NCBI RefSeq assembly: GCF_900473965.1
Contig: NZ_UCNJ01000009.1
Span: 1 to 64,000 of the forward strand
Direction: 5' to 3'
Source: Synechococcus sp. UW179A
Lineage (GTDB): Bacteria; Cyanobacteriota; Cyanobacteriia; PCC-6307; Cyanobiaceae
DNA length: 64,000 bases
Part shown: positions 24,416-43,763 of the stretch, piece after piece
Numbering within the stretch: the stretch's first letter is position 1
Layout of the letters: every line of letters starts with the position of its first letter
Program-made: the position numbers and the translations under genes
Notes under the pieces: generated by a model
What the model saw: only the letters and a program-made list of their open reading frames with translations
What the model was told of the DNA's origin: nothing
Databases searched by the model: none

Positions 24416-24555
24416 GGACCGAACGCTCCGAACTGGCGACGTTATGGCTTGTCATAGCGACAACAATGCCAACGATCAAATCTATTTGCGCAAACAGACA
24501 AGACAACAACCAATGGCTACAACCATGTCAGTGATGAACCATTCGAGGAGAGTCA

Positions 24556-24765
24556 ATGAGTGATCAGGAACAACAAAGGCCTGTCGTGATCCAACAAGGG
24601 GGCAACGGGATCGGTCTTGTTCTTGCTGCATTGATCGTGGGTGGTGCCATTGTCTATGCCGTCAACATTTGGTCCAATACTCAGCAACAGAAGCTCAGAG
24701 TGCCCGCAGAAGCGATCCAGAAAGGCGTTGAATCTGTCAAGGAAGCGATCAAACCAGGGTCTTGA
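24556..24765 (+). CDS. Small single-pass membrane protein
   Basis: A 69-residue protein: a short Gln-rich N-terminus, one helix (GIGLVLAALIVGGAIVYAVN) and a basic tail (EAIQKGVESVKEAIKPGS). GAGGAGAGT lies just before the ATG (GAGGAGAGTCAATG), a good ribosome binding site. Unknown function. Confidence 0.65.
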   Translation: MSDQEQQRPVVIQQGGNGIGLVLAALIVGGAIVYAVNIWSNTQQQKLRVPAEAIQKGVESVKEAIKPGS

Positions 24766-24891
24766 ACGAGGCTCATTGAGCAGGTGCTTAGGAGAAAACA
24801 TGCAGACAATGCAAAAAGCCATGCAATAAAAAGTTCTGAAATGATCAAGCCCCTTACATAAAACATCTAATTTCAAATCAGCCATCCGCAC

Positions 24892-25515
24892 ATGAAGAGA
24901 TTTGTTGCCATCGTTCTTTCAATCTCAACCCTGTTAGCAGGTTGTACGGCATCGGATCGGTTTGAAGAAAAAACATTTCTGAGCAATGGACCTTACCAAC
25001 AAGGGACCATCAGTATCGACAGATCAAAACTGCAGACAGTCGTGACATGGTGCAGCCCAACTCTTCTGCAAATGGCGGTTTACGACAATGTTCAAGAAAG
25101 CTACCCCACGGAGTACACGCAATTGAAAGGGAAGGACCATCCTCTACAAATGTCTGTCACTGTTTTTCCACAAGACTTACCGTTCAGCTATGCCGCGGAG
25201 TACAGCAAACCAAAAGATGTCACCAGTATCTGCAGTCCTGCAAGCATCCAGACAACCCTAAGCACTGAGACGGGCAATTCACCGACTCTCAATAAAAATC
25301 TGGGGCAATCATTTGAGGTAAGAAGCGATAAAATGGTGGCCGTGAAAGTGGACTGCAACGCATGCAAAGCTGGCTATTCAGAACTTGACCACTTCAATGG
25401 CCCGGATTATGGAAAGGAAGGAGGAGTAGCATTAATCCCTGCGGGAGAAGCTTCAGACGTGATAGGAGAATGCAAGGACAATATTTTCTCGATTCAGATC
25501 AACCCAGCGAATTAA
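24892..25515 (+). CDS. Putative lipoprotein
   Basis: A 207-residue protein whose N-terminus MKRFVAIVLSISTLLAGCTA is a lipoprotein signal with lipobox LAGC. The mature part contains several Cys (TWCSP, SICSP, DCNACKAG, GECKD), suggesting disulfides in the periplasm. The gene is comparatively AT-rich. No domain recognised. Confidence 0.7.
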   Translation: MKRFVAIVLSISTLLAGCTASDRFEEKTFLSNGPYQQGTISIDRSKLQTVVTWCSPTLLQMAVYDNVQESYPTEYTQLKGKDHPLQMSVTVFPQDLPFSYAAEYSKPKDVTSICSPASIQTTLSTETGNSPTLNKNLGQSFEVRSDKMVAVKVDCNACKAGYSELDHFNGPDYGKEGGVALIPAGEASDVIGECKDNIFSIQINPAN

Positions 25516-25596
25516 TCATAATCCGAGGCAACGATTGAAAGCAATTACTCGCACAACAGATAGCAGTCAGCACCGAAAGACATACAACCCAAAAAA

Positions 25597-25932
25597 TCAA
25601 CGGCCATCAAAGGCCTTTAACACCTTATCAAGCACAATGATGTTCCGCATGTGCTGAACCTCAGTTAGTCCGTTCACCTTCATAAACTCAGCGAGACGGT
25701 CAGGAAAATCTATAATTTCGCGACCGGTATCAACAAATTGACGAAAAGCCTTAAGCAACTCATCCTTATTATCAGCACGCTGAATAGCACAGCAGCACCA
25801 ATTGATTGCCGCATGTTCCTGAAGCTGATATTCTCGGAGCTGATGCTTTAAGGTATTGATCGTTGCTTTTGTTTTTCTTGCATAAAAAGCCCATGCCAAA
25901 CTAAGAAAGGCCAGAATAATTGTTTGTACCAC
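25597..25932 (-). CDS. Membrane-anchored hypothetical protein
   Basis: A 111-residue protein from GTG: one N-terminal membrane helix (TIILAFLSLAWAFYA), then a soluble helical domain with INWCCCAIQ and FRQFVDTGREIIDFPDRLAEF. No family recognised. Between its start and 26169 I see no gene. Confidence 0.55.
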   Translation of the reverse strand: MVQTIILAFLSLAWAFYARKTKATINTLKHQLREYQLQEHAAINWCCCAIQRADNKDELLKAFRQFVDTGREIIDFPDRLAEFMKVNGLTEVQHMRNIIVLDKVLKAFDGR

Positions 25933-26169
25933 GCACGCAAGGCGACTAGATCAAGACTAATCAAGCCGGAACGGAGTGTCAAAACAGATCAGCAGTTCAT
26001 CAACAGAATCGACAAATCAAACAACGCCTGGGGCACGGAATAAAGACCAGCAACCCAGCATTAATGCCAAGCCAATCAGGTCACAAAAGACATTCAGACC
26101 CAGCACAATCTAGACTGTTGTCTTATCAGACTTTAATGTGTAAACTACGAACTAATTCAACATAGCTCT

Positions 26170-26304
26170 GTGAAATATTTACTTCTGCTTGGCCTACTGT
26201 TTGTGATCGCAGTTTTGGGAGCTTATTTGAATGGTCAAACAGATACCCCAACAGAAAACCAGGACAATGTTAGAGGAATCTCTGAGTTGCGATTCACAAC
26301 TTAG
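26170..26304 (+). CDS. Micro-protein with one membrane helix or signal peptide
   Basis: A 44-residue GTG-initiated frame: MKYLLLLGLLFVIAVLGAYL followed by a polar tail (NGQTDTPTENQDNVRGISEL). A 7-bp hairpin at 26318 follows its stop codon, which suits a separate transcript. No clear Shine-Dalgarno. Confidence 0.45.
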   Translation: MKYLLLLGLLFVIAVLGAYLNGQTDTPTENQDNVRGISELRFTT

Positions 26305-26317
26305 CGACAGCAAGGCC

Positions 26318-26335
26318 TCAGGCCCTTAGGCCTGA
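26318..26335. terminator. Hairpin after the micro-protein gene
   Basis: TCAGGCC, loop CTTA, GGCCTGA. There is no T-run, so it may only be a stabilising 3' hairpin rather than a terminator. Confidence 0.35.
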
Positions 26336-26419
26336 AATCCCATAAGCCAATTTTCTTGCTAACAATTTCCAGCTCTTGTGCGAGGCATGTTCAGGCGTCT
26401 TGGGGCATGGAATCGTCTG

Positions 26420-26596
26420 TTATTGAGCAACGGTTTTCTCTTCAGAGGAAGTCCCATCAATCACCAGTGACTTTTGATTCGACTCTTGCTCTTCAGCCGA
26501 TTCCTGAAACACGATGTCGATTTCAGCAACCCAAGCAATAATCGCAATTAGACCCACAACGGTGCCGATCCATAAAGCAGTCCGTCGACTCGACAT
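26420..26596 (-). CDS. Small single-pass membrane protein
   Basis: A 58-residue product: MSSRRTALWIGTVVGLIAII is a positively charged start plus membrane helix, followed by an acidic tail (VFQESAEEQESNQKS). The arrangement (positive inside, acidic outside) is typical of a small membrane protein. Family unknown. Confidence 0.55.
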   Translation of the reverse strand: MSSRRTALWIGTVVGLIAIIAWVAEIDIVFQESAEEQESNQKSLVIDGTSSEEKTVAQ

Positions 26597-26710
26597 GCGG
26601 TTAAAGGCCTAGTGCGTTGAGACTAGTGCCAAAAGACAAGCTGCCAATGCTCGGGACAGGCCTTGTAGCAGTTTGGCCAGGCGTACCAGAGAGAAAAGCC
26701 AAGAGGCAGG

Positions 26711-26842
26711 CTATGGGAGCAAATCAAACCACATAATCAAAACAAAGAAAACAGCCGCAGAAGACAGAGCTGTTGACAAGAATGAAAGCAACAGCGTATC
26801 GCTCAATCCATGCTGAACATCATATTCAACAACAGTTGACAT
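26711..26842 (-). CDS. Small single-pass membrane protein
   Basis: A 43-residue frame: an N-terminal polar part (MSTVVEYDVQHGLSDTLLLS) and a hydrophobic helix (ALSSAAVFFVLIMWFDLLP) reaching the C-terminus. The N-terminal spacing recalls short photosynthetic small subunits, but no match can be claimed. Confidence 0.45.
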   Translation of the reverse strand: MSTVVEYDVQHGLSDTLLLSFLSTALSSAAVFFVLIMWFDLLP

Positions 26843-26996
26843 GGGCTATTAATGAACCTTCTACTTGAATAGCGGCCAGCGAAAAGTCGAGCCTGAGCAC
26901 AGACTGAGAAATTAATGAATGTTTTTGATCGGCATTACCTACGATTCACAAGCATAATAGAATAAGCATTAACACATAACAGTTAAACAACGTCCG

Positions 26997-27110
<114 letters not shown>

Positions 27111-27160
27111 ACCGCAATCAAACTTCTCTCGAATCAACATAAAGCCTGAAGGCCCTGATC

Positions 27161-27367
27161 TCACCCACCTTCCATCGATTGTTGATGGCTGTGCTGACGA
27201 AAAAGATCACTGGCCTCATCAATCTCAGTGATTTCAGCATTCTTCTCCATGCTTTCGTCTTGACGACGCTGCTGCTGCTCACGCTCCTGTTGCTGCTCTT
27301 CCCTGCGAACAGCCCGTGCGTAGGCGTCGCTTGAATCAGAACCGGTTCGGCGCTTTTCCGAGCTCAT
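27161..27367 (-). CDS. Gln/Glu-rich small hypothetical protein
   Basis: A 68-residue charged protein dominated by a probable coiled helix (AVRREEQQQEREQQQRRQDE). It is divergent from nth. Similar short proteins occur near nth in marine picocyanobacteria as far as I recall. No function known. Confidence 0.6.
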   Translation of the reverse strand: MSSEKRRTGSDSSDAYARAVRREEQQQEREQQQRRQDESMEKNAEITEIDEASDLFRQHSHQQSMEGG

Positions 27368-30178: not shown

Positions 30179-31012
30179 ATGCCCACGCCTTTGGACCGCG
30201 AGTTGAAATCTCTCAAACTGGCGGTGGTGGGGCATCAGGAATGGGTCACCTTTCTGGAGGTCGATGCACTGCCCAGGCCTGGCAGAATCGGCAGAGCATT
30301 CCGAGACCTCGAAGAACCGGCCGGTGCCGGACCTGTGATTGCTGTCCAGCTGGCACGCCTCACTGGTCAAAGAGTCCTCTTTTTCACAGCACTCGGCCGG
30401 GATGCGATTGGCCAACGCAGCGAACAGCGCCTCAGAGAGCTAGGCATTGAACCGGTGGTTGCCTGGCGCGACAAGCCCAGTCGCCGTGGAATCAGCCTGA
30501 TGGATCCCAGCGGTGACCGCGCGATCACGGTCATTGGAGAGCGTTTGATGCCTACGGCTGAAGATGAACTCGGATGGGAAAGACTTGCCGACTGCGACGG
30601 CGTTTTCGTCTCGGCTACCGACTGCGATGGCCTCCGCCAGGCTCGCCAGGCAAAGGTCCTGAGTGCAACACCACGGCTGGGCCTCTCGGTTTTACAGCAA
30701 GCATCCGTGCCACTGGATGCCTTGATCGGCAGCGGTCTGGACCCGGGTGAACAGGTTCCCGACAACTGTCTTCATCCTGCACCCACCGTTCGCATCGCCA
30801 CGGAGGGTGAGGCCGGAGGCCTGATGATTCCCGGCGGACGTTTTGATGCTGTGGAACTGCCAGGCCAGATGGTGGAGACCTATGGATGTGGTGACAGCTT
30901 TGCCGCAGGTGTCACCGCAGGACTAAGCGCAGGTTGGAGCACCCATCAGGCCGTTGCGCTTGGAGCGCGCTGCGGCGCAGCCTGTGCTACACGCTTCGGG
31001 CCTTACGGCTGA
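30179..31012 (+). CDS. PfkB-family carbohydrate kinase
   Basis: From Met 30179 the enzyme has 277 residues. It has the ribokinase-type features LEEPAGAGPVIAVQLARLTG, TALGRDAIGQRSEQRLRELG and the C-terminal catalytic signature ETYGCGDSFAAGVTAGLSAG, where Asp is the base. The sugar cannot be determined. The Gly-Ala of the usual GAGD loop is Gly-Cys. It probably shares a transcript with the upstream membrane protein. Confidence 0.8.
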   Translation: MPTPLDRELKSLKLAVVGHQEWVTFLEVDALPRPGRIGRAFRDLEEPAGAGPVIAVQLARLTGQRVLFFTALGRDAIGQRSEQRLRELGIEPVVAWRDKPSRRGISLMDPSGDRAITVIGERLMPTAEDELGWERLADCDGVFVSATDCDGLRQARQAKVLSATPRLGLSVLQQASVPLDALIGSGLDPGEQVPDNCLHPAPTVRIATEGEAGGLMIPGGRFDAVELPGQMVETYGCGDSFAAGVTAGLSAGWSTHQAVALGARCGAACATRFGPYG

Positions 31013-31128
31013 AGCAGATCCGTTCGGCGTCCGAAAAGATCAGCAACGAACACCCCTCTTGATTCAACGCGTTTTCACTGATGCTCACATTGATGCATCA
31101 GGCTCACATTGAGAAGAGGTGGAAGAAA

Positions 31129-31374
31129 TCATTCAAATGTGATTTGGCAGCGGTAGCGATAGCCCCTGCCTGTTCCAATTCTGATGCAGGATGTGTTTGT
31201 GATAGTTGCACCCTGTGGCACTTTTGACATGAGGTTGTTCAATGTCACCTCTTCGCTTGTGTGACCGAGTCTGATCAAGGTTTTGGGCTCTGCTTGAACC
31301 ACGGGAACGCAAGCAAGCAAACCCATGAGAAGCTTTATCGAGATCGACTTGAAGAGGATTTTCGACAACACCAC
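31129..31374 (-). CDS. Small secreted protein, paralogue of 12089-12343
   Basis: An 81-residue product with a signal peptide (ISIKLLMGLLACVPVVQAEP) and a short mature part containing VTLNNLMSKVPQGATIT and two Cys (NTSCIRIG and YRCQITFE), matched in order in the protein at 12089. The gene is AT-rich. Function unknown. Confidence 0.6.
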   Translation of the reverse strand: MVLSKILFKSISIKLLMGLLACVPVVQAEPKTLIRLGHTSEEVTLNNLMSKVPQGATITNTSCIRIGTGRGYRYRCQITFE

Positions 31375-31421
31375 AAATCGCTGCTAAGACTCTTGAATAA
31401 CAAGTTCGGCATCATAAACGG

Positions 31422-31646
31422 ATGAAATTTGAATTCACAAAGGAGGAATTTGATGAAATAATTGCTGCTGCCAAAGAGGCAAGGATTCGCTGGAAAAAAG
31501 CCAGAACATTATGGAGAGTGGGACATCACGCTTATCTCAAGCACAATGAACAGGAGCTTGAAGAAAACATCGAACGATTTAAGCAAACTGAAAAAATGCT
31601 GATTGATCGCTACAAAACCGTCACTGGCGAAGACTGGCATCGGTGA
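31422..31646 (+). CDS. Small helical hypothetical protein
   Basis: A 74-residue charged protein (MKFEFTKEEFDEIIAAAKEA), likely all helix. AGGAGGA occurs shortly after the ATG rather than before it. Unknown family. Confidence 0.55.
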   Translation: MKFEFTKEEFDEIIAAAKEARIRWKKARTLWRVGHHAYLKHNEQELEENIERFKQTEKMLIDRYKTVTGEDWHR

Positions 31647-31667
31647 GTCTTGCAACGGCAGGTTGGA

Positions 31668-32141
31668 TCAACTCAGGAATGCCGGTGCCAAAACTCTGGC
31701 ACGCAGCAACCAGTCATCGACACGCTCAATGGAAGCTGCCTTGGCCTTTCCCACTTCGACATCGCGATAGAGATCAGCGATCTTCCATGCGCTGGTGCGT
31801 GGATCATCACCAGAACGCGGGATCAAATGCAGATGAAGATGTCGGGCACCCTCTCCAAAGGCAATGGCATAGACGCGATCGCAGCCTGTGACCTCACGAA
31901 TTAACTGGGAGGCTCGTTGCACAACATCGCCCCACTGCCGCGCTTCGTCGGGGGCAAAGTTCATCGGACCACCAATGTGTCGCCGGGAATCCAACAGACA
32001 CCAGCCGGTCAAGGGAGCAGGGCAAGGATGATGTCGCAGCAACCAGAGATCACTTCGCCAAACCTCATGGGACGTCAGCTCAGCCTCGTCGCCATGCAAG
32101 GAACAGATTGCGCAGGAGGCTTTCGGCTCCAGAGAAACCAT
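31668..32141 (-). CDS. HIT-family protein
   Basis: From Met 32141 (MVSLEPKASCAICSL) the protein has 157 residues. The histidine triad HLHLHLIPR lies near residues 101-109, and an N-terminal CxxC may bind a metal. The HIT family hydrolyses or transfers nucleotides; the substrate here is unknown. It lies divergent from gap. Confidence 0.8.
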   Translation of the reverse strand: MVSLEPKASCAICSLHGDEAELTSHEVWRSDLWLLRHHPCPAPLTGWCLLDSRRHIGGPMNFAPDEARQWGDVVQRASQLIREVTGCDRVYAIAFGEGARHLHLHLIPRSGDDPRTSAWKIADLYRDVEVGKAKAASIERVDDWLLRARVLAPAFLS

Positions 32142-32221
32142 GGACTTGAGGGAACGACCTGAGCTCACTCTGTCTGCGTCCCAGAAAAGGAGGGGGTTTT
32201 CGATGGCAATGGGCTCTATAA

Positions 32222-33256
<1,035 letters not shown>

Positions 33257-33304
33257 ACCTTCTCAGGTCTTTCAGCGCAGCTCAGTTCCGAAAAGAATAA
33301 TGAG

Positions 33305-34540
33305 CTACTTCTTGGCGGTGGCAACTTGCTTTTGTTGATCTAGAAGATTAGCCAAAGATTGTTGACAAGTCCAACGAAGTGGAACCCAGGCGGCAGTCTT
33401 GGAGAGTTCGTCCAATAAATCCATCTGGTCGAAAAGCTGTAAATCAACACAAGCCCAGGCAGCCGCAATTCTCGACTTGGTGTATTGAGGAGTTGTCTCC
33501 GCAAGAGCTGACCTAATCAAATCACCTTTCTCTTGTATTTTGCGCAAACCTATGATGCAAGTTAAATAATAATGAGTGACATAATCAGACCATAATCTTT
33601 CCTGCATACTTTCAATCAAATTCAAACATTGATCACGCTCAATTCGCATCATACTGGCCGCAGCTCCATATTGTCGAGCCTCATCACGGTGACTGAGATT
33701 TTGCTCAATCTCATCAGGATTATCACCACACTGCCACTCCTTCTTTATATCCAACAACAGAGGATTATCCCGCAAAAGCTGTTTTAATAAAACCTGATTC
33801 TGTGGCTCAGAGACTGAGTTGTTGGCATCAACAATTTGAAAGAAACTTTTAGCTCTCAACGACATGGATACCGGAGCACGAATCAAATCAGGAAGAAGAG
33901 CTTCATCACCAGAGTCTCCAATATCGATAACCGCGGAACGCCGCTTACCAGCAACAAGATCAGTGAGACATGCCAGCAAGGGCTTCATCAGCTCGACTTC
34001 ACCGTAAAGCAGTGCTATGCAGGCCCTAGCTGCACCAGAAACCAAGAGACTTTCGTGATCGCATAAACCGCCAATCCGCTCCTTTGACTGAGCACTTTTA
34101 ATACGAAGCCTCGTGAAAAGCTGAATCACCGCACGTGCTTGTGTGACTTCTCCATCCAACAGATTGAGAAGATGATTTTCCTCGTCTTCACTTGGCGACC
34201 AGCCAATTCTGATCAGTGCAGATAAGGAATTAATCACTGCCTCCGTATCAGTACACCTCAGGACTTCAACCAATGCAGGAATCGCCTTTGCATCCTTCCT
34301 TCTACCCAGTGCTTCGACAGCCTTACGTCGAGTTATCCTATCGAACAATTCATCAACTTTGAGATCACTAGTCGCCCTGATCAAAGCATCAAGAGTTTCA
34401 TCGCAATCACACAAGCCTAATCTGGTGGCCGCAAAATAGCGATCAGCAGGTCTTTCAACAGAGTCTGTTTTGGCGAACAATAAATGAAGTGCATCAGACT
34501 TTGATATTCCTTGAACCAAAACATCGAATCGCTCTGCCAT
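33305..34540 (-). CDS. HEAT-repeat phycobilin lyase, CpeY/MpeZ type
   Basis: A 411-residue HEAT-repeat protein. The stretch ADRYFAATRLGLCDCDETLD, then DRITRRKAVEALGRRKDAKA followed by IPALVEVL is the core of the CpeY, MpeY and MpeZ lyases that attach or isomerise phycoerythrobilin on phycoerythrin. The exact member (MpeY, MpeZ, MpeW, MpeQ or CpeY) cannot be told by eye. It lies between gap and psbA with no phycobilisome structural gene visible. Next upstream on the same strand is a 55-residue RHH protein. Its AT content is higher than that of its neighbours. Confidence 0.7.
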   Translation of the reverse strand: MAERFDVLVQGISKSDALHLLFAKTDSVERPADRYFAATRLGLCDCDETLDALIRATSDLKVDELFDRITRRKAVEALGRRKDAKAIPALVEVLRCTDTEAVINSLSALIRIGWSPSEDEENHLLNLLDGEVTQARAVIQLFTRLRIKSAQSKERIGGLCDHESLLVSGAARACIALLYGEVELMKPLLACLTDLVAGKRRSAVIDIGDSGDEALLPDLIRAPVSMSLRAKSFFQIVDANNSVSEPQNQVLLKQLLRDNPLLLDIKKEWQCGDNPDEIEQNLSHRDEARQYGAAASMMRIERDQCLNLIESMQERLWSDYVTHYYLTCIIGLRKIQEKGDLIRSALAETTPQYTKSRIAAAWACVDLQLFDQMDLLDELSKTAAWVPLRWTCQQSLANLLDQQKQVATAKK

Positions 34541-34788
34541 ACCCCTACAACATTAAACAAAGAACCTTAAACTATCGCCAAGCCAAGGGAAGAGAAAACA
34601 TTCAAGCAAAGGCGTTACAGTTTTTAATTACATCTTCTCTCAAAACAATAACTCGGAAAAACAATACTGTTGCCAGCTTAATCAGACTGGCTCAAACCCT
34701 CTTACTTAAACCAACAACAGCAAAATCACAGGAGACTCCATATCACTAGAGAAACAAAAAGCGATCTTGAATGAAACAATCAAAAAGA

Positions 34789-34956
34789 TTACTTGGCACG
34801 ATGGTCAACCAATTCAATAAGATGAGCATCATGCTTATTACAGAAATCAGAAACACACTCTCGCAAAATATGCCCAATAGAAACCCCTTCGGTATAACAG
34901 AGAAGTTTTAAATTCTTATGGAGTTCATCGCTGAGCTCAAACGTGACTCGTTTCAT
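34789..34956 (-). CDS. Ribbon-helix-helix DNA-binding protein, 55 residues
   Basis: It begins MKRVTFELSDELHKNLKLLC; the alternating KRVTFEL strand, then two helices (DELHKNLKLLCYTEGVS, IGHILRECVSDFCN) is the ribbon-helix-helix pattern of small transcription factors and antitoxins. No toxin gene is adjacent. It may regulate the bilin lyase on the same strand or a neighbour; that is inference. Confidence 0.65.
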   Translation of the reverse strand: MKRVTFELSDELHKNLKLLCYTEGVSIGHILRECVSDFCNKHDAHLIELVDHRAK

Positions 34957-35168
34957 CTAAAGACAGCGGACATAATTAGGAGCGTAAAAAAGAAAAAGCC
35001 CTAATCCATTTATCCTAGATCTTTTAACAAGAAATGGATTCAGAAAGCTATTCAGTTTACAAAGCTCAACAGCGACGACCCATGGTGCAAGCAAATATTG
35101 CAATCACAAGCTTGATGGCAATCAGAGAATCTCAGAGCAGTAAATTGATGGAAACATCCAGGAGCCCA

Positions 35169-35492
35169 ATGTCTAAGGCTGCGCTGCATGCTTTTATTGA
35201 CAGAGCAAGAGAGGACCAGACATTCCGAGACCAATTAGCCGATCTCGGACCGCAACAAATCATTGATTATGCGGCTCGCAATGGGTTCATGTTCTCCGAC
35301 GAGATTAAAGGCCGGTTCATCAATCGCTGGGCTGGTGTTTACTTCTGCCCTCAAGCCATTGAGGTTGGCACCCTTTGCCCCAAACTGGTTCCTGAAGGTT
35401 ACAAGAATTTGATACATTATGCCCAATCAACCTGCAGCTCTTCAGAACTCAAAGAAGAAGAGCGTGATTTCAGATCGGGGCATAAATACTAA
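35169..35492 (+). CDS. Nif11-domain small protein
   Basis: From ATG 35169, with a GGAG motif just upstream, the product has 107 residues. The first half (MSKAALHAFIDRAREDQTFR, then DQLADLGPQQIIDYAARNGF) is the Nif11 leader-like domain. The second half has three Cys and no Gly-Gly cleavage site, so a role as a peptide-natural-product precursor is not supported by the usual mark. The frame extends to 35034, but the start with a ribosome binding site is preferred. It is near the bilin lyase and psbA. Confidence 0.65.
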   Translation: MSKAALHAFIDRAREDQTFRDQLADLGPQQIIDYAARNGFMFSDEIKGRFINRWAGVYFCPQAIEVGTLCPKLVPEGYKNLIHYAQSTCSSSELKEEERDFRSGHKY

Positions 35493-35850
35493 TCAAATCG
35501 GTTCAAACTGAAGGTCTTAAGCCATACCTTTTCGGCAAGTCGGCTGATCACACTTAAGTTCAAAGTCAGGCTTAAACGCAACTAAAAAATAAAAGTCCCT
35601 CAAACCCACTGCCTCGAGCCGCCTAGCATCACGACTGCGCTAAAACACAACAAAATCAACATTATGGCATCCAATATGCCGTAAATCACAGCCCAGTCTC
35701 TCTGTAAAAACTTTTATTTGGAACGACAATTTATGCAATAATTGCACCCAAACTTCCACGAAGACCATCGACTTGACAATTGACTTCTCGCCCATTCAAC
35801 AGGTCAAAGCTATCTATTTTTTAGCATTTAATATCCGCGATAAGCACTCA

Positions 35851-35880
35851 TTGTTGATTGTTGATTGTTGATTGTTGATT
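35851..35880. repeat. Heptanucleotide tandem repeat, (TTGTTGA)4
   Basis: Four consecutive TTGTTGA units with a partial fifth (TT), followed by ACTGATCT. It lies beyond the psbA terminator, in an AT-rich context. Confidence 0.9.
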
Positions 35881-35902
35881 ACTGATCTGACAGAAAGCCA
35901 AC

Positions 35903-35930
35903 AAAAAACCCCCTCGTGAGAGGGGGTTTT
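35903..35930 (-). terminator. psbA intrinsic terminator
   Basis: On the minus strand the stem CCCCCTC / GAGGGGG with a 4-base loop is followed by six T. A matching A-run on the other side makes it possibly bidirectional. It is 54 bases after the psbA stop. Confidence 0.9.
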
Positions 35931-35983
35931 CCGATTCAGCTCAAGCTGAATCTCTTAGAGACTTCAGCCTCAGGCTGTCTCGA

Positions 35984-37060
35984 TCAACCGATGGCGGGAG
36001 CTTGCAGAGCCACAGGTGTGGACTCAGCAGCAGCCAGGTCGAGGGGGAAGTTGTGAGCGTTGCGCTCGTGCATCACTTCCATGCCAAGGTTGGCGCGGTT
36101 CAGCACATCAGCCCAGGTGTTCAGGACACGGCCCTGACCATCAAGGATGGACTGGTTGAAGTTGAAACCGTTCAGGTTGAAGGCCATGGTTGACACGCCC
36201 AGGGCGGTGAACCAGATGCCGACAACGGGCCAGGCAGCCAGGAAGAAGTGCAGGCTACGGCTGTTGTTGAAGGAGGCGTATTGGAAGATCAGGCGACCGA
36301 AGTAACCGTGGGCAGCCACGATGTTGTAGGTCTCTTCCTCTTGGCCGAACTTGTAGCCGTAGTTCAGTGAATCGTTTTCGGTGGTCTCGCGGACCAAGGA
36401 GGAGGTCACCAGTGAACCGTGCATGGCGGAGAACAGTGAACCACCGAAGACGCCAGCCACACCAAGCATGTGGAAGGGGTGCATCAGGATGTTGTGCTCG
36501 GCCTGGAACACCAACATGAAGTTGAAGGTGCCGGAGATGCCCAGGGGCATGCCGTCAGAGAAGGAACCCTGACCGAAGGGGTAAACCAGGAACACGGCGG
36601 AGGCAGCAGCCACAGGTGCGCTGTAAGCAACGCAGATCCAGGGGCGCATGCCGAGGCGGTAGGAGAGTTCCCACTCGCGACCCATGTAGCAGAAGATGCC
36701 GATCAGGAAGTGGAAGACAACCAGCTGGTAAGGACCGCCGTTGTACAGCCACTCGTCGAGAGAAGCAGCTTCCCAGATGGGATAGAAGTGAAGGCCGATG
36801 GCATTCGAGGAGGGCACAACAGCACCAGAGATGATGTTGTTGCCGTAGATCAGGGAGCCAGCAACGGGCTCACGGATGCCGTCGATGTCGACCGCGGGAG
36901 CGGCGATGAAGGCAATAATGAAGCAAACGGTGGCTGCAAGCAGACAGGGAATCATCAGCACACCGAACCAACCCACATAAATGCGGTTATTGGTGTCGGT
37001 GACCCACTGACAGAAATTTTCCCAACTGCCGCGGCGACCGCTGCGGATTGCAGTAGCCAT
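35984..37060 (-). CDS. psbA: Photosystem II D1 protein
   Basis: A 358-residue reaction-centre protein. [36 protein letters not shown] and the P680-ligand region [15 protein letters not shown] identify D1. The C-terminal extension [19 protein letters not shown] has the maturation site after LDLA. In [12 protein letters not shown] the residue at the isoform position is Glu (usual position 130, here 129 as the N-terminus is one residue short), marking the high-light D1:2 type. The gene ends at the terminator at 35903 and has a triple repeat upstream at 37185. Only one psbA copy is in this window. Confidence 0.98.
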
Positions 37061-37184
37061 GAAAGAAATGAGAACGGAGATGAACCAGGCCTTCCAATTG
37101 GTCGGCGAAGATTCGAACCAAGGCTATGGAAATGTCGACTCGTGACCTGGCAATCACATCATTCGAGTCAACTCGCAGCATTGA

Positions 37185-37214
37185 TTCATGACAACTTCAT
37201 GAAGGCTTCATGAA
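37185..37214 (-). promoter_or_regulatory. Triple TTCATGAA direct repeat upstream of psbA
   Basis: Three 8-bp units (TTCATGAC, TTCATGAA, TTCATGAA on the plus strand) occur with 3-bp spacers (AAC, GGC), giving an 11-bp period. This geometry is that of tandem sites for winged-helix OmpR/PhoB-type regulators. The units are 125-154 bases upstream of the psbA start codon. The sequence does not match the HLR1 consensus I know for RpaB. Confidence 0.5.
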
Positions 37215-37258
37215 CAAACTTGAAGCAGCTCCGATTGCACAAGCTCAGATCGTCTGAG

Positions 37259-38572
37259 TCATGCAGTTGTGCAGCTGTTGCGTGCCTGGATCCACTCACG
37301 GGCCTGCTGAGCAAACCCAGCGAGATTGAGGCGCTCCTGCTCTGCAGCACGCGCCACTAAGAGTGGTGCCTGTCGCTTGAGCTCCTCCAGATCGGGCTCT
37401 GCAACGCCCGCATTCAGCGCCATCCAGTCGGCCATGGAAACGCCCACCACCCTGGTTAGGTAAGCAGCGCTCAACCCTTGCATGGCACCTGCTGCAATCC
37501 AGCTGGCTCCATCAAGCTTGGCGAGTCCGAGCAACGCCTGACCGCTCAATTCCACAACGCCCTGAGCCAGGGCGGCGCTACCCAGCTGCCGGGCAACAAC
37601 CTGGAGCACCTCGGCACTCCAGGGACAGCTCCAGATCGTTGCCATCTCCTTCACCATCAGTCCATTGCCCACGGCAACAGCCAACAGATCAACAGAGGGA
37701 ACAGGTGAAGCGATGACAACCCCAGCCACGATCCACTGACTGCGCTGCAGCAGCAGGCGGAATCTCTCCCTTCGCAGCGCTTCAAGATCAGCCTGCCAGC
37801 GCTGATGCAGGTTGCTAAGCAGGCGTTGACGCGTGGCCTGTCGCACCCGTTCCGAACGCATCAGCTGTTGACGGACCGGCTGGAGCACACCACGAAGCTC
37901 CATTACTTCACCGGACCAAGGGAGCAGGCATGGATGCCAGCGCTCCGGCAATTGACAGCGCAAAGCCTCCAGATGGTCGTCAGCAGACCTGTCGACTGAC
38001 GACTGCAGAAGAAGCCAAACCGGACGATCCGCAGGCAGCTGGTCCAACCAGAGCAAATCCGCAGCCCGCAGAGGCAGGGGAAGAACATGCAACAACACAT
38101 CCAGCTCCTGAAGATCGTCAGGCCAGCACCAGGCCGAGGAGGTCACCGGTAGTGGGTTGGCCAGACAGAGATCGAGCGAGCTCACTCCCGCCAACGCCTG
38201 CTGCAACTGGACAGTGGCGGGAACTACGGATCCCTCAGTGGCCACAACACCGAGCGTGAGCGGCGCATCAAAACCTTCGATTCGTCGCAGCTCAATTTCA
38301 CGGGGAGAGCGCAATCCCTGCAGTCCCAACGCCAGCTCAAGCTCCGCGAATTGCTTCAACACCACCTCACAGCGCTGGATCCAACCTTTCAGGGATGCCG
38401 GCTCGCGAAAGCTGGGTTGCTGCGGGGGCCTGGACAGCCACCAAAGACCTGCAGCAGCAACAGCAATACCCAACCCACCACCTGGAACGTGCAACACGTC
38501 CGCCAGAAGCCACTGACCGGTTCCGATCACGCCCACCGACAGCAGCAGAGGCCTGATCAAACCGGATGTCAT
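37259..38572 (-). CDS. DUF697 (YcjF-like) membrane protein
   Basis: From Met 38572 (MTSGLIRPLLLSVGVIG) the protein has 437 residues: two hydrophobic N-terminal segments, a central basic helical region, and a C-terminal DUF697 domain (SPVPSVDLLAVAVGNGLMVK, then ELSGQALLGLAKLDGASW and VVGVSMADWMALN). I see no GTP-binding P-loop in the middle. The function is unknown. It follows the small gene at 38580 by 7 bases. Confidence 0.7.
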   Translation of the reverse strand: MTSGLIRPLLLSVGVIGTGQWLLADVLHVPGGGLGIAVAAAGLWWLSRPPQQPSFREPASLKGWIQRCEVVLKQFAELELALGLQGLRSPREIELRRIEGFDAPLTLGVVATEGSVVPATVQLQQALAGVSSLDLCLANPLPVTSSAWCWPDDLQELDVLLHVLPLPLRAADLLWLDQLPADRPVWLLLQSSVDRSADDHLEALRCQLPERWHPCLLPWSGEVMELRGVLQPVRQQLMRSERVRQATRQRLLSNLHQRWQADLEALRRERFRLLLQRSQWIVAGVVIASPVPSVDLLAVAVGNGLMVKEMATIWSCPWSAEVLQVVARQLGSAALAQGVVELSGQALLGLAKLDGASWIAAGAMQGLSAAYLTRVVGVSMADWMALNAGVAEPDLEELKRQAPLLVARAAEQERLNLAGFAQQAREWIQARNSCTTA

Positions 38573-41719: not shown

Positions 41720-41825
41720 GTGAAACGAGCCTCATTCTTTGGCGAGAGTACATCCACCAATAGGATGCTCATGGCTTGCCAGCTGCGGCAACAGCCTTCG
41801 ATCAGATCTCAGGAATCACGCCTCC

Positions 41826-43763
41826 ATGCCCGTCGTCACTCTTCCAAACGGAACCACCAAAAGTTTTGACGGGCCAGTCACCATCGCAGACGTAGCAGCG
41901 TCAATCGGACCTGGCCTGGCTAAGGCAGCTGTCGCAGGAGTGGTCGATGGTGAATCCTTGGACATGGCTATGCCAATCGAGAAGGATGTCGACTTACGTC
42001 TCTTAACAGCAAAAGATGCCGAAGGAATTGACATCATAAGACACTCATTTGCCCACCTCGTAGGGCATGCAGTGAAACAGCTCTACCCAGAAGCTCAGAT
42101 GGCCATCGGACCTGTCATTAAAGACGGATTTTATTACGATATTGCTTATGACAAACCCTTCACTCCGGAAGACTTAGAAGCCATAGAACAGCGAATGAAA
42201 GAGCTGATTGCAAAAGACTACGAAGTCAATGTTGAGGTCGTGAATCGCAATCAGGCAAAACAAGCATTTAAATCCAGAGAAGAGCCCTACAAACTGGAAA
42301 TTGTTGAAGAAATACCCGACGGCGAAACAATCAAGCTCTATCACCATGAGGAATACACAGACATGTGCCGTGGGCCACATGTCCCTAATACAAGTCACTT
42401 ACGACATTTCAAGTTAATGAAAGTGTCTGGAGCTTATTGGAGAGGTGATTCCAACAACCAAATGCTGCAAAGAATCTATGGAACAGCCTGGAGTACAGAA
42501 AAAGAACTTAAATCGCACTTAAAAAAACTCGAAGAGGCCGAAAAAAGAGATCACCGACGTCTTGGCCGCCAGCTTTCACTGTTTCATATTCAGGACAATG
42601 CACCTGGCATGGTGTTTTGGCACCCACCAGGATGGGCAATCTATCAAAAGCTCCAGCAATATATACGTAGACGGCTGAGGGAAGCTGGCTACCAAGAAAT
42701 CAGTACTCCTCAGATTGTTGATAGAACCTTGTGGGAAAAATCGGGACATTGGGACAAGTTTAAAGAAGACATGTTTACAACCTCATCTGAAAACAGAGAC
42801 TACGCGGTCAAACCTATGAACTGCCCGTGCCACGTTCAAATTTTCAACCAGGGATTGCGTAGTTATAAAGACTTACCAGTCAGACTTTCAGAATTTGGCT
42901 CATGCCACAGAAACGAGCCATCAGGAACATTGCATGGACTGATGAGAGTCAGAAATTTTGTTCAAGATGACGGGCATATCTTCTGCTCAGAAGATCAAGT
43001 TCAGTCCGAAGTATCAAACTTCATCGATCTCGTCTTTGACGTCTACAAAACACTTGGGTTTGACACAATTTCAATCAAATTATCAACACGTCCCGAAAAG
43101 AGAGTGGGTAGCGATGAAGTTTGGGATAAATCCGAAAAGGCACTACAGGATGCCCTAGAAAACAAAAATTTGGAGTGGGAGTTATATCCAGGGGAAGGAG
43201 CTTTCTATGGCCCCAAAATTGAATTTTCTTTGCAGGACTGCTTGGGCAGGGTGTGGCAATGCGGAACAATCCAGGTTGACTTCTCAATGCCTGACCGTCT
43301 GGATGCAAGCTTCATTGGGGAAGATGGATCTCGACATACACCTGTGATGCTTCATAGAGCAGTTTTAGGTAGTTTTGAACGCTTCATCGGCATTCTGATT
43401 GAAAATTATGCTGGTGAATTCCCGTTCTGGCTTGCACCCGAACAAATCAGAATCCTTCCAGTGAGTGATGACGCAAGAAACTTCTCCAAAACAGTCCAGA
43501 AGAAGTTACTGAATCAAGGTATTTCCGCCACGGTTGACGAATCTGGTGAGCGCCTTGGCAAACTAATCCGCAACGGAGAAAAAGCCAAGATCCCAGTACT
43601 GGCTGTTATCGGAGCTAAAGAGACTGAAAACAACACTGTCAGCCTTCGAAGCAGAAAAAATGGAGATCTCGGGGAAATATCAATCAACGAATTGATTGAT
43701 TATTGCAATCAAGCTAACAACAATAAATCAGAAGACCCTCTTGCAACAGCAGTGCACTCATGA
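41826..43763 (+). CDS. thrS: Threonyl-tRNA synthetase
   Basis: A 645-residue class II synthetase. An N-terminal TGS-like part ([20 protein letters not shown]), an editing domain ([20 protein letters not shown], later [10 protein letters not shown]) and the catalytic core ([44 protein letters not shown]) precede an anticodon-binding domain. The start at 41826 follows homology; the frame extends to 41739. The gene is clearly more AT-rich than its neighbours. It overlaps the DUF1824 gene by 4 bases. Confidence 0.95.

Follow-up and report, generated by a model that had tools for sequence, protein, structure and literature searches.

The locus and its setting

The stretch of DNA analysed here (the window, 64,000 nucleotides) lies on contig C9 of the draft genome of Synechococcus sp. 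UW179A, which comprises 3,057,835 bases in 35 contigs and is 99.97% complete. A lyase gene, a small ribbon-helix-helix (RHH) gene and a Nif11 gene sit beside psbA, all four where an earlier note on this DNA had placed them (Table 1). The genes stand in the order unk10, fciC, mpeZ: mpeZ follows fciC at the 3′ end, unk10 diverges at the 5′ end, and the GC content of the island is 0.433 versus 0.545 for the window. The lyase was also correctly described as lying outside any phycobilisome cluster: MpeA, MpeB, MpeC, CpeY, CpeZ and other phycoerythrin-cluster queries matched nothing in the 64-kb window at a threshold of E 1e-4, and the cluster is found on contig C14. Both home sites, that of the mpeZ island and that of the PEII cluster, are contiguous despite the 35-contig draft.

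Table 1. Features of the UW179A island and its flanks (positions in the window).
Feature	Position	Strand	Remarks
gap2-type glyceraldehyde-3-phosphate dehydrogenase gene	32249..33256	+	island flank; named from sequence alone, without family search
mpeZ, phycoerythrobilin lyase-isomerase ortholog	33305..34540	-	411 aa, intact, HEAT-repeat, HRDE motif
mpeZ leader, fciAB-less type	34541..34788	-	contains AATTAAAAACTGTAACGC at 34612-34629; unrelated to full-island leader
fciC, ribbon-helix-helix protein	34789..34956	-	55 aa; candidate regulator
decayed copy of element TATCCATTTCTTATCAAAA	35022..35040	-	3/19 mismatches; upstream of fciC in full islands
deletion junction	35087..35174		fciB and fciA occupy this place in G009 and G026
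unk10, Nif11-domain protein	35169..35492	+	107 aa from proposed start; longer ORF 35034-35492 is 152 aa
psbA (photosystem II D1)	35984..37060	-	opposite flank of island

A site outside the phycobilisome region, a nearby psbA or hli gene and low GC all characterize CA4-A islands; here the neighbour is psbA. The tandem AraC-type genes fciA and fciB, which also define such islands, are missing from the locus, and since they are absent from the site and have no ortholog in the genome, the island is a partial rather than a complete CA4-A island. The window holds two further low-GC stretches, one at 41739-43763 with a 674-aa ORF on the plus strand (GC 0.45) and one at about 24553-27250 with short ORFs and little coding before 27443.

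The lyase is an MpeZ ortholog

Residues 1-398 of the lyase match PDB 7mc4 (‘Bilin Lyase-Isomerase’, E 9.4e-124), so by sequence the protein shares the fold family of the 7mc4/7mch lyase-isomerase, while the NCBIfam CpeY model scores 169 bits (E 9.8e-50) against a cut-off of 600, short of the CpeY equivalog level. The HRDE motif described for MpeZ in PMC3877281 is present near residue 285. To sample relatives, all 31 genomes of the genus were searched, 29 of them giving a match at E 1e-20, together with 300 family genomes drawn from a larger group, of which 49 gave a match at E 1e-70. From chosen relatives we built a 54-row lyase tree whose rows were labelled by gene position. The UW179A lyase falls inside an MpeZ clade of 23 rows with support of 100, a clade made up of 16 full CA4-A island rows, five fciAB-less relatives including UW179A and two stand-alone copies; lyases from the PEII-cluster place (the mpeY place), CA4-B lyases (MpeW) and CpeY lie outside it. 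A careful 29-row tree gave the same placement. Outside the MpeZ clade, too, is 7mc4, which groups with the PEII-cluster lyases of CA4-B genomes, which we take to be MpeQ.

We therefore assign the gene as an mpeZ ortholog on the grounds of its sequence. The earlier note had recognized a lyase of the CpeY/MpeZ group, which the 7mc4 match and the clade support bear out, and had asked for a phylogeny, which now places the protein among the bilin lyases rather than outside them; it had missed the specific identity as MpeZ, which came from the tree. MpeU was considered as an identity and ruled out, as mpeU is located in the PEII region (PMC5318389) and the protein belongs to the MpeZ clade. Between the window and G008, a relative of like genotype assembled in one contig (3,314,220 bases), mpeZ shows 66 nonsynonymous and 149 synonymous differences (dN/dS 0.08, dS 0.93); selection counts use this pair only, since other pairs involve chimeric genes.

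fciC and unk10

The 55-aa RHH protein matches RHH_1 below the cut-off (E 0.0032, 17.8 bits versus 20.5), but 21 other islands have the same small protein in the corresponding position (76-95% identity), so the gene is real. The Nif11 assignment (PF07862, E 2.2e-8) is above the Pfam cut-off. For the Nif11 gene, the most likely start is the ATG at 35169, which follows AGGAG at 35160, because orthologs of unk10 are 107 aa long and the longer, 152-aa frame, which begins within the old fciC upstream element, is interrupted by a stop codon in three of four close relatives. Sequence and place identify the RHH gene as fciC and the Nif11 gene as unk10. Relative to G008, fciC carries 3 nonsynonymous and 10 synonymous differences, and unk10 5.5 and 20.5. 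The suggestion that the RHH gene could be a local regulator agrees with the literature, FciC having been named a possible regulator in PMC3877281 (2013); the role is putative.

fciA and fciB are missing from the locus and the genome

In G009 and G026 the same gap2 and psbA genes enclose a full island, mpeZ-fciC-fciB-fciA-unk10. Aligned with G009, the window matches at 34783-35086 (fciC and upstream) and at 35175-35492 (unk10), with fciB and fciA between the two matches, and the 88 bases of the junction show no homology to fciA or fciB. The two genes are also missing at this place in G008, G014, G017 and G018 (in the last three the contigs stop before psbA), and the spacing of fciC and unk10 is 208-212 bases in all five fciAB-less genomes, which points to a single deletion. 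When the UW179A genome was searched with FciA and FciB of G026, the matches were C-terminal only, with best E-values of 1.8e-8 and 1.6e-9; 12 of the 31 genus genomes have full-length orthologs, with E-values no higher than 2.1e-124. Two AraC-type genes on C24 and C25 were ruled out as moved copies of fciA and fciB, their similarity being confined to the C-terminal part. The earlier note was thus right to suspect membership of a chromatic-acclimation island, with mpeZ, fciC and unk10 retained, but a working colour-tuning island is not what is found, since fciA and fciB have been lost, as has the competitor gene mpeY.

The same searches turned up three equal-scoring AraC-type matches in G008 about 20 kb apart (C1:3114562, 3134935 and 3154644), which suggests that a block of roughly this length is repeated, and fciAB fragments with stops in G022 (C1:2255307-2256164). 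G006 shows the reverse decay, with fciABC and unk10 kept and mpeZ absent (L104:5264-8234).

mpeY is missing from the PEII cluster

Queried with MpeZ, the UW179A genome yielded, besides MpeZ itself, only CpeY (26%) and one further lyase (28%). The PEII cluster on C14 reads unk7, unk8, unk9, a 1.1-kb interval, mpeB, mpeA, mpeC, and the contiguous unk9-mpeB interval has no mpeY match at E 10. The interval of G018 is similar and likewise without an mpeY match, and that of G008 is mpeY-less with one insignificant match (E 1.6). G017 retains an mpeY pseudogene (L066:1-1020, on C40) that is broken by one nonsense codon and two one-base deletions and whose start lies beyond the contig end; in the single-cell draft of G014 the PEII piece was not found, so that mpeY could not be assessed there. 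A statement in PMC3877281 that mpeY is present in all PEII strains conflicts with a later paper.

MpeA of UW179A has both Cys75 and Cys83. Residue 141 is Leu in CpeB and MpeB, as given for BIOS-E4-1 and blue-light strains (PMC9705338), but at CpeB-141 this residue is non-discriminating, because the acclimating strains G005 and G010 carry Leu too.

fciAB and mpeY are lost together

Among the mpeZ genomes compared here, a full-length mpeY-type frame is present in 16 of 16 with fciAB, namely 11 of the genus plus G304, G054, G117, G125 and G258 (for the last four, mpeY status comes from the family-wide lyase search alone). Seven of the mpeZ genomes compared lack fciAB (UW179A, G008, G014, G016, G017, G018 and G279), and intact mpeY was found in none of the six that could be assessed. 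In G016, unk10 directly adjoins mpeZ without fciABC (L059:6752-8686, L078:7571-8965), and mpeY is a weak, degraded remnant (37% over 76 residues). G279 has a stand-alone mpeZ (C1:703575-704792; L105, L109) with no other island genes within 15 kb, no FciA match, no FciB within that same 15 kb, where alone it was looked for, and a PEII cluster without mpeY; it looks like a separate blue-locked case.

To explain the fciAB-less rows, the lyase tree requires three changes, and a single clade was rejected (p-AU 1.7e-37); this count is to be read with the cautions that G016 is basal and long-branched, so that its state could be ancestral, and that three rows are chimeric. Genomes arrived at the fciAB-less, mpeY-less pair along different routes: outright loss of mpeY, point mutations in mpeY (G017) or replacement of both loci by recombination tracts (G018).

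Recombination tracts at both loci

Over 84 windows of 1 kb in G018 for which G009 has a match, the two genomes have a mean identity of 93.5% in 76, 78.9% in two from the island and 81.9% in six from the PEII region, these zones having been delimited after the profile was seen. Of 80 windows that can be compared, 7 show UW179A rather than G009 as the closer to G018, and every one of these lies in the island or PEII place. The mpeZ genes of G014, G017 and G018 (single-cell drafts, 70-80% complete) resemble the window over roughly the first 480 bases (88-92%) and G009 from roughly base 600 onwards (92-98%, G014 down to 87 at the end). This chimerism and the identity profile of G018 show that the stretch from unk10 through fciC and the leader to 5′ mpeZ entered these relatives as a recombination tract. 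The mpeY-less PEII cluster of G018 is a second, unlinked tract. In the PEII tree, G018 groups with UW179A and G008 (100/100) and G017 with G009 and G026 (100/100), and the remaining sampled DNA of G018 is of the type found in fciAB-bearing genomes. The direction, into the relatives, we infer from backbone distances.

G018 and G008 are 97-98% identical over several kb after the PEII cluster, which indicates that exchange between these lineages is real. In L128:2001-10000 (about 67-75 kb on C3 of G018), G018 is 92-99% identical to G008 versus 89-95% to its backbone relative G009, which marks a further, recent exchange. Between the window and G008, mpeZ is 82.5% identical and a 4.4-kb flank 93.4%; with identity below that of the flank, mpeZ may be mosaic here as well.

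The earlier note had remarked that such islands can be mobile. This fits in so far as relatives contain the fciAB-less stretch as a recombination tract; as to a phage carrier, one scan of viral contigs, with patterns built from the window protein alone and able to detect only close relatives, found none.

The control regions differ between full and fciAB-less islands

An element near TATCCATTTCTTATCAAAA (19 bp) lies upstream of fciC and ends 60-74 bases short of the gene. All 17 fciAB-bearing islands examined keep the TATCC of this element intact (0-3 mismatches of 19). None of the five fciAB-less ones does (3-7 mismatches of 19); in these the site was identified by position and flanks, six or seven mismatches in the element alone being near chance.

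Among the five fciAB-less genomes the mpeZ leaders resemble one another, all 10 pairs scoring above every shuffle. When these leaders are paired with those of full islands (G009, G026, G005, G054, G125), all 25 cross pairs stay below the 95% shuffle level. With one mismatch allowed, the 18-mer AATTAAAAACTGTAACGC occurs in 5 of the 31 genomes, the five fciAB-less ones. Next to mpeZ, 73 of 110 leader columns are invariant versus 41 of 149 further up, a split chosen after seeing the alignment, and set against fourfold sites in mpeZ codons 1-135 (28 of 55 invariant) the excess is only modest. This suggests constraint on the leader next to the gene; given the recombination tracts, the five leaders do not count as independent observations. 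A search of the 31 genomes for the origin of the leader matched only the five fciAB-less places and 26 bases in G021 (E 8e-4). The fold of the leader, taken as a possible RNA element, was no better than shuffles (z 0.98), positions 31000-38000 had no Rfam match, and a promoter scan gave 3 promoter-like sites versus a mean of 4.2 in shuffles.

A probable fixed blue-light module

The locus is an already known kind in a new genome. BIOS-E4-1, a natural blue-light specialist of clade CRD1 (CRD1C, pigment type 3cA; PMC9124967), likewise keeps mpeZ and unk10 and has lost fciA, fciB and mpeY (PMC3877281, PMC9705338); PMC3877281 describes its partial CA4-A island without fciAB, the lack of differential mpeZ expression under the two light colours, blue and green, and a phenotype locked to blue. 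G008, with its UW179A-like genotype, is probably BIOS-E4-1, and UW179A is another genome, its MpeZ being 87% identical to that of G008. With the complete CA4-A islands of RS9916, BIOS-U3-1 and others, as described in PMC3877281, the locus has in common mpeZ, fciC, a divergent unk10, an adjoining psbA, low GC and a place outside the phycobilisome region; it differs in its mpeZ leader and in that fciA, fciB and mpeY are missing from the genome. The CA4-B island (mpeW, fciAB and unk10 in the PEII cluster) shares unk10 and a lyase of the same group but has no fciC and another place, and MpeW falls outside the MpeZ clade.

In our reading, the degraded CA4-A island very probably serves as a fixed blue-light pigment module. 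MpeZ of RS9916 has been shown by others to attach phycoerythrobilin to Cys83 of MpeA (the PEII alpha subunit) and to isomerise it to phycourobilin, and by analogy the UW179A enzyme would do the same, yielding the blue-absorbing chromophore. Blue light induces mpeZ in full islands, an effect that the literature attributes to FciA and FciB, and MpeY from the main cluster competes for the same cysteine. With fciA, fciB and mpeY gone, MpeZ would be left without regulators and competitor, and the cell would be expected to stay in the high-phycourobilin state whatever the light colour, as reported for BIOS-E4-1; the fciAB-less leader may make mpeZ expression independent of light colour. UW179A is thus probably fixed to blue light, a phenotype carried over from BIOS-E4-1.

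A colour switch that still works, with FciC alone or regulators encoded elsewhere replacing FciA and FciB, is very unlikely. It would account for the constraint on fciC in the absence of fciAB, seen in the differences from G008, for the different mpeZ leader and for the presence of two other AraC-type genes in the genome, but those two match FciA and FciB in their C-terminal parts only, the competitor mpeY is absent, and BIOS-E4-1, with the same genotype, does not acclimate (PMC3877281). We regard it as highly improbable that the island is functionless and on its way out: the loss of fciA, fciB and mpeY and the degraded element upstream of fciC would suit such decay, but the comparison of the window with G008 shows mpeZ, fciC and unk10 to be open and under constraint, relatives have taken up the same stretch as a tract, and no other MpeZ- or MpeY-type enzyme is left for the site that MpeZ would serve.

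That the lyase is instead a relocated mpeY, encoding a plain phycoerythrobilin lyase, is extremely improbable, even with the usual mpeY place empty in UW179A. The lyase tree rules this out, placing the protein in the MpeZ clade apart from the lyases of the mpeY place, as far as position-based labels can be relied on; moreover, its neighbours are fciC and unk10, and G009 and G026 have mpeZ at the same site and carry mpeY besides.

New detail is added on how a blue-locked genotype arises and spreads; at the level of titles and abstracts, we found no description of the recombination tracts, the leader or the element. As a tentative proposal, blue-locking may be a genotype of two loci that is under selection and is passed from lineage to lineage through homologous recombination. 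The fciAB-less stretch, which brings an mpeZ leader of its own, and the PEII cluster without mpeY would be the alleles exchanged, each at one of the two unlinked loci. Uptake of the stretch would be followed by loss of mpeY, whether by deletion, point mutation or uptake of the second allele; the leader would free mpeZ from FciA and FciB, and the decaying element would mark the site of FciA/FciB control in working islands.

Where Synechococcus lives depends in part on its pigment type. The loss of the switch, with mpeZ kept and fciAB and mpeY lost together, is suggested to be other than random decay, because fciAB and mpeY go together by several routes, partly by allele exchange. The 19-bp candidate control element and the replaced mpeZ leader make the action of FciA and FciB, and any role of FciC, testable by reporter fusions. 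Lateral transfer of CA4 islands has been proposed in PMC3877281, with psbA and hli as recombination hotspots. In G005, a partial psbA lies beside the CA4-A island between two complete psbA copies (L051:7579-7902); a partial psbA beside the island is also reported for RS9916 in PMC3877281.
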